Of a DNA stretch of 64,000 nt, positions 12,731-43,404 are shown piece by piece. The notes below the pieces were generated by a model, which was not told where the DNA came from, made no database searches, and saw only the letters and a list, made by a program, of their open reading frames with translations. Source of the DNA: Parelaphostrongylus tenuis (Eukaryota > Nematoda > Chromadorea > Rhabditida > Metastrongylidae); assembly GCA_019055375.1 (NCBI GenBank), contig JAHQIW010007225.1:1-64000 (forward strand), written 5' to 3'. Positions within the stretch are counted from its first letter, which is position 1. Each line of letters begins with the position of its first letter. The translations under genes were made by a program, and so were the position numbers.

Positions 12731-23189
<10,459 letters not shown>

Positions 23190-40700: not shown

Positions 40701-40760
40701 TTAGTTAATATAGAGGTGAGTTAATCTGATAAGGATATACATATTTTGAGCCATAGGTCT

Positions 40761-40810
40761 AGTGCTATATAGGCGCCTATTTCGTCCTATTGGGACTCAT
40801 CAGTAGCACC
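40761..40810 (-). ncRNA. Hammerhead ribozyme, type I, intact (copy 1)
   Basis: Minus strand: stem I strand GGTGCTA, core CTGATGA, stem II GTCC/GGAC with loop CAATA, CGAAA, stem III TAG/CTA with loop GCGC, then T-A and the stem I partner TAGCACT. All conserved core bases are present. Predicted cleavage lies between plus positions 40768 and 40767. Confidence 0.92.
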
Positions 40811-41046
40811 CTCCCTCGGTTCCGTCGATCCCTTGAGGTGAAACAATCCTCCAAAGGAACCGACGCCGAGTAAAATTAAGCACCCAAAGTAGGATGATGT
40901 TATTACCTGACTTTGTGGTGACCGGCAGTCGAGCTTACGGCTTTTAAAATGAACTATACTTCTGCTATCGACTGCTTTTTTACAGACCCGCTCAAAATGA
41001 TTTAATCTGATAAGGATATACATATTTTGAGCCATAGGTCTAGTGC

Positions 41047-41066
41047 TATATAGGCGCCTATATAGC
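41047..41066. repeat. 20-bp perfect palindrome at the inverted unit junction
   Basis: CTATATAGGCGCCTATATAG joins the minus-strand and plus-strand units. Its centre is the stem III sequence TAGGCGCCTA of the ribozyme, and the plus copy resumes at CTCGACTGCCGG, truncated. Confidence 0.8.
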
Positions 41067-41189
41067 TCGACTGCCGGTCACCACAAAGTCAGGTAATAAC
41101 ATCATCCTACTTTGGGTGCTTAATTTTACTCGGGCGTCGGTTCCTTTGGAGGATTGTTTCACCTCAAGGGATCGACGGAACCGAGGGAG

Positions 41190-41239
41190 GGTGCTACTGA
41201 TGAGTCCCAATAGGACGAAATAGGCGCCTATATAGCACT
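41190..41239 (+). ncRNA. Hammerhead ribozyme, type I, intact (copy 2)
   Basis: Stem I GGTGCTA (41190-41196), CTGATGA (41197-41203), stem II GTCC-CAATA-GGAC, C then GAAA (41217-41220), stem III TAG-GCGC-CTA (41221-41230), T41231, A41232, cleavage, then TAGCACT (41233-41239). The three-pair palindromic stem III is typical of ribozymes thought to act as dimers in tandem transcripts. Confidence 0.93.
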
Positions 41240-41469
41240 AGACCTATGGCTCAAAATATGTATATCCTTATCAGATTAAATCATTTTGAGCGGGTCTGTA
41301 AAAAAGCAGTCGATAGCAGAAGTATAGTTCATTTTAAAAGCCGTAAGCTCGACTGCGGTCACCACAAAGTCAGGTAATAACATCATCCTACTTTGGGTGC
41401 TTAATTTTACTCGGCGTCGGTTCCTTTGGAGGATTGTTTCACCTCAAGGGATCGACGGAACCGAGGGAG

Positions 41470-41519
41470 GGTGCTACTGATGAGTCCCAATAGGACGAAA
41501 TAGGCGCCTATATAGCACT
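41470..41519 (+). ncRNA. Hammerhead ribozyme, type I, intact (copy 3)
   Basis: Identical to copy 2 over all 50 positions, 280 nt downstream. Cleavage is predicted after 41512. Together with copy 2 it would release a 280-nt RNA with 5'-OH and 2',3'-cyclic phosphate ends, the substrate form for circularisation by RtcB-type ligase. Confidence 0.93.
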
Positions 41520-41620
41520 AGACCTATGGCTCAAAATATGTATATTCTTATCAGATTAAATCATTTTGAGCGGGTCTGTAAAAAGCAGTCGATAGCAGAA
41601 GTATAGAGGTGAGTTTTGAG

Positions 41621-42476
41621 ATTCTTTTTGATTAGGGAGGGACAAATGAAAAACGACCTCATTCACTGGAGAGGAAATTTCTATAGGAGTATTAGTAACC
41701 ATTCGAGAGCTGAGCCTTCAGGCGACCGCACCACGCTGTCTTTTTTTCAGAGCACTCTTTTGTAACATTGTAACACTTAGATCAAAAATTATGTCCCACA
41801 CTCGCCTTTTGCCTTCATTTTTACTACGCATGTAATTCGCTGAAAGCCGAAAAGCATGTCAATGTGTAGCAAAATTTTTGTAGCATCTTAGAAAATCGTT
41901 TTATCTGCAGGTTCTTTCAAAGCAGGGGAAAGTTCTCAATTGAATGACAAAATATCGATCGTTCCGCCTCGTCCCGCCCCTGCCACGCCTCCACTCTCCG
42001 CGCTGCTCTAGCTTTGTCGAATAGTTGGTAAACAGCGTTGCTAAAAATGTAAAACTCAATCTTATTTTCTCTGCTAAACCGTATTTCTGGAAAGTATGCA
42101 CATCGCTAGAATCAGGAAAGGAAGGACAAAGAAGAGCTCTGTCCAGCGGAGTCAAAAGATCAAAGGAGATCAAAAGATAGAAAGAGCTTTTCGAGGAACA
42201 AGTACATGTTTGTTTCTTCAAAGGCTGTGCTATAGCTTGAGTACTGGAGTATTGTCCAGCGAAATGTGAGCGAGATAACAGAAGAAACACACGCGGTTTC
42301 ATGAACGTGATTTTATTTCGAATGTTACAGCGTTATATAGGGGGTGCTTTGAAAAACCGGCTACGTGGGGCTATAGCCTCCAGTCTCAGCTTTTGAATGG
42401 TTACTAACGTTTCTGTGAAAATTCTCTGGGAATGATTTCGGTTATTCATTTGTCCCCTCTCAATCAGAAAGAACCA
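41621..42476. mobile_element. Non-autonomous DNA transposon with long terminal inverted repeats, copy 1
   Basis: The left end (GGGACAAATGAAAAACG, TTAGTAACCATTCGAGAGCT) is the imperfect inverse of the right end (complement of GGGACAAATGAATAACCG and TTAGTAACCATTCAAAAGCT), over roughly 75-90 bp. The interior is shared with copy 2 but contains no transposase. The 133-codon frame at 41901-42302 (-) is not convincing as a gene. Confidence 0.7.
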
Positions 42477-42516
42477 CTTTTGAAATGACTGAAAATAAAA
42501 ACTATGAATGGAAAAA

Positions 42517-43404
42517 CCGATTCTTTTCCGTTAATCGCGAACAAATGAAAAACCGATCTCATTTACTGGTGAAAAATTTATAGAAGCGTTGATAATCTTT
42601 GGAACATTTAGATCTCTGGCTACAGCTACATGTAGCCGTTTTTTTTTTTTTTTGAAAGACGGTTTTACTACGCTGTAGTATTCAAAAGAAAACTGGGTTT
42701 CGAACCCTTCTTGCGCTTTCGTTTTCTTTCACACGTATAATTTGCGGGAACCACGAAAGTATATGCGCGCGTGGAGAAACTCTCGTAGTATCTTAGCCGA
42801 TCATTTTATGTGGAAGTTTCCTTCAGGGCGGAAAAAAATTCATAATTGAAAACAGCTTGCATCCCATATGTCTAACGTATAAGGGCATCGATCGTCGCCC
42901 CCCCCCCCCCCCCTCCAGCTGGACCGGTAAACAAGCTCACCGAATATGTGACACTCGATCTTGTTTTTCCCTGCTACAAAATACGCATAACGCTGGTGTC
43001 AATGAAACTAGCGCTATCAAGTGACTGCTAATAGTCTAAAGAAAGAGCTATGTCCGGCAAGTTGTAAAACACTAATGTTTCCTTTCTTTAACAACGCTAT
43101 AAAAAGAGCTTTTCCGGAAAGCAAATAAATTTTTTTGCTCTTTGAGACTTATGCTGTCGAAAGAGTGCTGGCAATCCAAAGAAGGAGTTTCGTCCAGCGA
43201 AATCTAAGCGAGATAAGAAAAAATGCATGGTCGTGTGGGACATGATTTTATTTTGGATTTTGCAGCATATAAAATGGTGTTTTGAAAAAGCAGGCACGCA
43301 AGGCCCTTACCAGAGATTCAAGCTTTCGAATAACTAGTAATACTCCTGTGAAAATTTTCTACCCGGTCGATTTTCATTTGTTTCTGTACAACGGAAATGA
43401 ATCG
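42517..43404. mobile_element. Non-autonomous DNA transposon with terminal inverted repeats, copy 2
   Basis: Terminal inverted repeats begin CGATTCTTTTCCGTT at left and CGATTCATTTCCGTT as the complement at right. Interior blocks parallel copy 1 in order (for example TCCAGCGAAATNTNAGCGAGATAA). A 15-18 base C run lies near 42898. Copies are substantially diverged, so the pair is old. Confidence 0.65.

Follow-up and report, generated by a model that had tools for sequence, protein, structure and literature searches.

A hammerhead retrozyme family in a nematode genome and its Penelope-like insertion ends

An insert of about 0.9 kb at 40717-41606 of the window (the whole 64-kb stretch of DNA that was analysed, contig C4900 of a 481.5-Mb assembly) is a member of a multi-copy family of nematode retrozymes. 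It was likely made by the reverse transcriptase-endonuclease of a Penelope-like element (PLE), which would have copied retrozyme RNA, probably circular, starting from each strand of a target cut with a stagger. The two-armed insertions that were mapped in this family mostly share the layout of the PLEs resident in the same genome, and thus the small elements are likely to have been copied by Penelope enzymes.

We take the host to be a strongylid nematode. The nematode origin put forward in the initial annotation agrees with a tandem SL1-like RNA (47 bits, with an SL1 gathering score of 75), whose letters are presumably those of the nematode spliced leader, and with a COX1 that is 93% identical to that of Angiostrongylus. 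The SL1-like RNA gene lies in a 568-bp tandem repeat at locus L029 (contig C3131). Stop-ridden COX1 pieces are present on C1055, C1054, C3631 and other contigs and are perhaps nuclear mitochondrial copies or contaminant contigs.

Anatomy of the insert and its hammerheads

The insert is composed of an inverted array fused head-to-head with a direct array of a noncoding repeat unit, which is about 282 nt long and has a GC content of 0.44 (Table 1). In the initial annotation it had been placed at 40723..41602, with two of its three hammerheads in tandem. Its bounds had to be corrected to those given above, within a 14-nt target-site duplication, and it is not a tandem dimer with a stray third copy, as the minus-strand hammerhead turned out to be part of the same insertion, being the one in the inverted arm. 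That no ORF is present holds for long frames: no ATG frame across it goes beyond 82 aa, and the one of this length is in the inverted arm.

Table 1: Features of the insert (positions in the window; windows A and B are the predicted start windows derived from the insertion ends of the family).
Feature	Position	Strand	Basis and remarks
Left target-site duplication TATAGAGGTGAGTT	40709-40722		Exact 14-nt match to right copy; includes microhomology with the element
Inverted arm, 1.22 units	40717-41061	-	blastn to unit, 99-100%; its outer end falls in zone A (BLAST: unit 220; before the duplication: 214)
Hammerhead, inverted arm	40762-40809	-	RF00163, 29.5 bits; predicted cleavage between 40768 and 40767
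Head-to-head junction	41061-41064		blastn map; exact point blurred by palindrome
Direct arm, 1.93 units	41064-41606	+	TRF period 280, blastn; its outer end falls in zone B (BLAST: unit 264; before the duplication: 259)
Hammerhead motif 1, direct arm	41191-41238	+	RF00163, 29.5 bits, covariation; predicted cleavage 41232^41233
Predicted reverse-transcription start window A (unit 199-214)	41262-41277	+	30 A-type ends; loop of predicted hairpin
Predicted reverse-transcription start window B (unit 255-272)	41318-41335	+	21 B-type ends; loop of second predicted hairpin
Hammerhead motif 2, direct arm	41471-41518	+	RF00163, 29.5 bits; predicted cleavage 41512^41513
Right target-site duplication TATAGAGGTGAGTT	41602-41615		First 5 nt (TATAG) match the RNA too

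All three hammerheads with conserved core that had been listed for the window are present at their places, identical to each other and of type I. The covariance model RF00163, proposed as a check, matches each of them (E 5.7e-5 in a search of 1,051 bases) at a score that stays under its gathering score of 34, and for this reason a scan of the whole window at gathering score comes out without them. The 24-nt core, searched with up to three mismatches, occurs three times in the window, each time without a mismatch, and in none of 100 shuffles; the motif is not a chance occurrence. Relatives elsewhere in the genome reach 45.8 bits with RF00163 (of 119,811 candidates 74 were scored, and 31 of these match), and the exact 35-nt ribozyme pattern had no match in viral contigs, a collection from which records near the window's own genome were possibly left out.

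Within the ribozyme, the 4-bp stem II and the spacing of 280 nt between the two plus-strand copies are as first described. Stem III does lie within a palindrome, one of 12 nt (ATAGGCGCCTAT), but it measures 4 bp including A15.1-U16.1 and not the 3 bp given before. The predicted cleavage context of the window ribozymes is CCTATA^TAGCAC. The minimum-energy fold of the isolated 48-mer lacks stem III; the ribozyme fold was taken from the family model and from covariation. For the latter we used 26 distinct ribozymes out of 29 from the genome, after one unrelated sequence and two with indels had been dropped. Hammerhead pairing is found in 94.8% of the cells, compared to 23-43% for slid partners. 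Both partners change in 4 of 14 pairs, and in stem III six sequences have CG in place of UA. Further pair types among these 26 ribozymes are not above shuffles (78 of 500 shuffles are as high), in a test that takes its structure from the family and whose shuffles are blind to the kinship of the ribozymes.

Around windows A and B hairpins are predicted by single-sequence folds of 41233-41320 and 41300-41368 (z -1.7 each), and it is on these folds that the hairpins rest, since RNAalifold gave no supported structure for 38 A/B regions. A search for the empty site with the joined flanks of the insert returned full-length matches only to the window's own two flanks. The right flank (41615-42563) is part of a dispersed repeat with at least 38 other places at 78-86% identity among the matches listed, so that polymorphism gives no age for the insert; inverted pieces lie further right in the window. 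At 19208-19867 the window also holds a 291-bp tandem duplication with two plus-strand tRNA genes, beside a minus-strand tRNA.

A dispersed family with two end zones

The element is far from being single-copy, as the 48-nt ribozyme (up to three mismatches) occurs at 1,990 places in the genome and at none in a reversed-read control. Cluster analysis covered the first 100 ribozyme places listed of these 1,990, all of them exact and falling into 55 clusters. Mixed strands are found in 21 clusters, and all of these (21/21) run minus-then-plus, which is the head-to-head order; the same-strand spacings (n = 24) are 281-285 nt. Seven exact ribozymes stand in a row on contig C435. In the fetched loci 124 of 155 intact-core ribozymes are letter-identical to those of the window, a share that does not gauge decay, since only ribozymes with an intact core fit the pattern and mirror duplicates were counted too, and full-length units among the matches listed are 95-100% identical to the window unit. 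Judged by these identities the family would indeed be young, as the initial annotation had it, and its term 'retrozyme-like' is well chosen for tandem noncoding units of about 282 nt with type I hammerheads, many copies and target duplications. From the 31 RF00163 matches 15 loci were fetched; they contain relatives of the retrozyme unit (71-98% identical), several of them head-to-head, showing that the layout is not limited to the youngest copies.

A few conserved amniote hammerheads seem to be active in mRNA biogenesis according to the available part of PMC7229834, and one could see host regulatory ribozymes in the hammerheads described here, with no part in mobile elements. With near-identical copies dispersed over about 2,000 places and with target duplications at the majority of the loci looked at, the family leaves practically no room for this reading.

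Some insertions are met more than once together with their target duplication, either mirrored or on two contigs (L023 and L024 on C4448; L034 and L036 on C4926 and C3537), and the pattern of L034/L036 has further matches on C3537 and C1553. Such mirrored or repeated insertions indicate palindromic or duplicated contigs.

In order to define the insertion ends we used a similarity set of 36 non-duplicate loci (38 looked at, two duplicates dropped), 22 of them two-armed and 14 one-armed. At 20 of the 22 two-armed loci one arm ends in a zone A (unit 207-226 by BLAST) and the other in a zone B (256-280), a pairing with P 5e-5 under independent ends, and the two exceptions are A+A. The 14 one-armed loci of the 36 comprise ten A ends, three B ends and one other, a class in which second arms of less than about 19 nt would go unnoticed. 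As these loci had been ranked by similarity, a second set was formed by going through the mixed clusters in contig order and taking the first ten; nine of them show the A/B pair and the tenth ends at 198 and 217. Over both sets the BLAST ends place zone A at about unit 198-230 and zone B at about 256-280, with one arm in each at 29 of 32 two-armed loci. Moved back to where the duplication begins, the ends occupy 199-214 in A (30 ends) and 255-272 in B (21 ends), two zones roughly 50 nt apart. Counted in this way, the distance downstream from the predicted cleavage site is 30-45 nt for A starts and 86-103 nt for B starts.

Target duplications of at least 9 nt were found at 31 of the 36 loci compared to 40 of 1,260 mismatched-flank pairings, the 31 including L032, where the pick is false (an internal repeat) and a 15-nt repeat lies further out. 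All ten contig-order loci have target duplications of 8-16 nt, a figure without control. The median length is 12 nt in both retrozyme insertions and PLEs, and their AT content is 71-74% as opposed to 61% in the window. Microhomology at the start, counted between the duplication and the next letters of the RNA, has a mean of 2.3 at A (30 ends, control 0.56) and 2.9 at B (21 ends, control 0.68), with duplications swapped between loci as controls; choosing the longest duplication inflates these means, by estimate perhaps by half a letter, and the difference survives this.

The mirror and repeated copies at L023 and L024 on C4448, and of the L034/L036 insertion on several contigs, might speak for head-to-head arrays as DNA-level or assembly products, be it satellite inversion or palindromic read artefacts. 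Such an origin appears very improbable, as the outer ends are closely flanked by target duplications, each of the two arms has an end zone of its own, and both the junctions and the arm lengths differ between loci. LINE insertions can also have inverted 5' parts and target duplications, and a LINE could have moved the units in trans, with the inversion as ordinary twin priming. We consider this improbable as well, if somewhat less so, because the arms of 29 of the 32 two-armed loci end one each in two internal zones, the outer ends inspected at retrozyme loci show no consistent poly(A) or microsatellite tail, and the layout is matched by PLEs within the same genome.

Resident Penelope-like elements and the likely template

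A search for GIY-YIG matches in the genome gave 1,723 candidates, of which 150 were scored, and by our count they include 20 outward-facing, that is head-to-head, pairs. One of the PLEs (L052) has an ORF of 892 aa with matches to RVT_1 (1.1e-11) and GIY-YIG (2.4e-7) and relatives at about 48-63% identity in the named strongylids Necator, Ancylostoma and Haemonchus, with a best match, unnamed, of 73%. A small hammerhead-like motif CTGAAGAAGGCGAACTGCCGAAACGTC lies 3' of this ORF and has no Rfam hammerhead match. The fetched PLE ends L090-L103 comprise at least two kinds of 3' end, and 12 of these 14 contain CTGA.GA...GCCGAAA by pattern.

The PLE ends were measured at L052 and ten fetched pairs, which makes 11 of the 20 outward-facing pairs. 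In all 11 one outer end lies at ruler position 354-368 and the other at 402-419, i.e. 56-70 and 104-121 nt past the predicted cleavage, and the two ends of a pair are 34-65 nt apart. Target duplications measure 12-13 nt in nine of these pairs and 8 nt in two. The initial annotation had remarked on a likeness to Penelope-like element repeats, and this is borne out more strongly than it was put: the retrozyme insertions carry the PLE tail signature, at 29 of 32 two-armed loci as compared to 11 of 11 PLE pairs. The available parts of the literature describe PLEs as having inverted pLTRs with an optional tail on one of the two (PMC3846280), and report a PLE enzyme that cleaves the two target strands and extends each of them, with two adjacent internal start sites defining the tail and no difference in start site seen between the strands (PMC11167929). 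Between the retrozyme unit and L052 (best E 0.61) or 14 other PLE 3' ends (best E 0.98) there is no sequence similarity, and hence no shared cis signal was found.

The arms themselves tell something about the template. Those longer than one unit, with a maximum of 13.75 units, cross the ribozyme cleavage site, and the inner ends are not piled up there (1 of 58 in unit 165-175, with 2.3 expected), so that the template is not, as a rule, a cleaved linear monomer. Unit divergence is 0.0066 within one arm and 0.0204 between loci, and the arms of one insertion are closer to each other than re-paired arms (p 0.00045, 21 insertions). The longest array mapped is that of L027 with 13.75 inverted and 4.3 direct units; here 254C>A is present in all 17 units that cover position 254 (18 tabulated), in both arms, and elsewhere in the table only at L039 and L047, and the other changes are private to single units. 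This variant pattern is what one would expect if one monomer circle was recopied. Beside this array, in the right flank of L027 (after 7452), lies a stretch (TTACCCAAGTTTGAG) that resembles the spliced leader's 3' portion and could be a trans-spliced retrocopy.

Variants common to both arms are also found at L040, L045, L046 and L047, the last of which scores as having unlike arms because its end was over-extended. At L013, L016, L023 and L033 the arms are no more alike than arms of different loci, and at L013, L025 and L042 the 3'-terminal (outermost) unit of an arm belongs to another variant, one that has diverged further than the units inside it. These foreign 3'-terminal units and unlike arms suggest template switching or the use of two RNAs, and one circle per insertion is thus not general. 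Twin priming on one RNA molecule was dropped as a general model, as the arms of several insertions differ.

A PLE enzyme might also have used a long uncleaved multimeric array transcript as template, with ribozyme cleavage being off-pathway, a reading that is one step apart from the one preferred here and compatible with the rest of it. Arms that mix different units (L042, L025, L013) would agree with it, as would the existence of transcribable arrays, for example the seven ribozymes in a row on C435, and, as far as the available part of PMC11167929 goes, the Anolis PLE whose ribozyme mutants inserted unaffected in vitro. However, one would expect such a transcript to be cut by its ribozymes, which are intact in the units, and the single-unit changes of L027 are absent from neighbouring units as if one short template had been recopied. 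We therefore see the uncleaved transcript as a possible template, although a rather unlikely one.

For a retrozyme circle copied by a PLE enzyme, the following course can be proposed. A retrozyme array would be transcribed, the transcripts would cleave themselves at the hammerheads, and the resulting monomers would be ligated into circles. The PLE protein would bind the retrozyme RNA, and its endonuclease would cut the target with a stagger of about 12 nt. Each 3' end of the cut would then anneal by microhomology in a start window of its own, A or B. The reverse transcriptase would copy the circle in one or several rounds, and joining of the two cDNAs in the middle would give the head-to-head arms. 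The RNA and protein steps are derived from established work on retrozymes and PLEs, and the helper PLE is a candidate. The chances are about even that a fixed rule stands behind this, by which priming is divided between the cut strands, with window A for one and B for its partner, each enzyme subunit rolls round an RNA circle and the cDNAs fuse head-to-head. If true, nematode retrozyme insertions would be direct genomic records of rolling-circle reverse transcription.

Comparison with known retrozymes and Penelope-like elements

Metazoan non-LTR retrozymes are described as noncoding tandem units of about 170-400 nt with one type I hammerhead each (available parts of PMC7229834 and PMC7761336). 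The nematode element resembles them in its short tandem units (spacing 281-285, within a range of 150-450 nt), the type I hammerhead in every unit and the lack of a long ORF, as well as in its many near-identical copies, a GC content of 44% (below 50%) and target duplications of more than 4 bp. By the sequence tests made it is a retrozyme of this kind, with RNA circles that are predicted from sequence. It differs in its host, as nematodes are not named in the available parts of PMC7229834 and PMC7761336, and in its head-to-head arms with two start zones, which are absent from the available part of PMC7229834. Among the matches listed from the open-licence literature there were neither nematode retrozymes nor PLE-type ends in retrozymes.

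With endonuclease-positive PLEs the family shares head-to-head arms, a type I hammerhead upstream of the starts and short AT-rich target duplications. A tail on only one arm is common to both, with a length of about 50 nt in the retrozyme, 34-65 nt in the local PLE pairs and 30-40 bp in the available published descriptions (PMC11167929, PMC3846280). Start microhomology is seen in the retrozyme, whereas the start site of the Anolis PLE has no homology to the cut according to the part of PMC11167929 available. Unlike PLEs the retrozyme encodes no protein, as it has no ORF over 82 aa, and hence possesses no reverse transcriptase or endonuclease of its own and is non-autonomous. Its stem III has 4 bp, whereas the local PLE motif GAAACGTC has almost none. 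Small hammerheads of PLEs that are active as dimers have reportedly been described by Luense et al. in 2017. The palindromic stem III (ATAGGCGCCTAT in the window, ACGT in the local PLEs) would likewise allow dimers, but the window ribozyme could also close stem III by itself with a 4-nt loop.

PLEs have been named 'a strong candidate' (PMC7229834) and 'likely candidates' (PMC7761336) as movers of animal retrozymes, in the available parts of both papers on the basis of co-occurrence and shared ribozymes. The present family goes beyond co-occurrence in that the end signature of PLEs is seen in its very insertions, and the same genome has about 2,000 ribozymes and long PLE ORFs. Defined RNAs can therefore be used to test which PLE is the helper, where copying starts and what part the circles play. 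The rule of one A and one B end also bears on PLE integration, for whose later steps validation is still to come according to the available part of the 2024 in vitro study (PMC11167929), and the known range of retrozymes may gain the nematodes.
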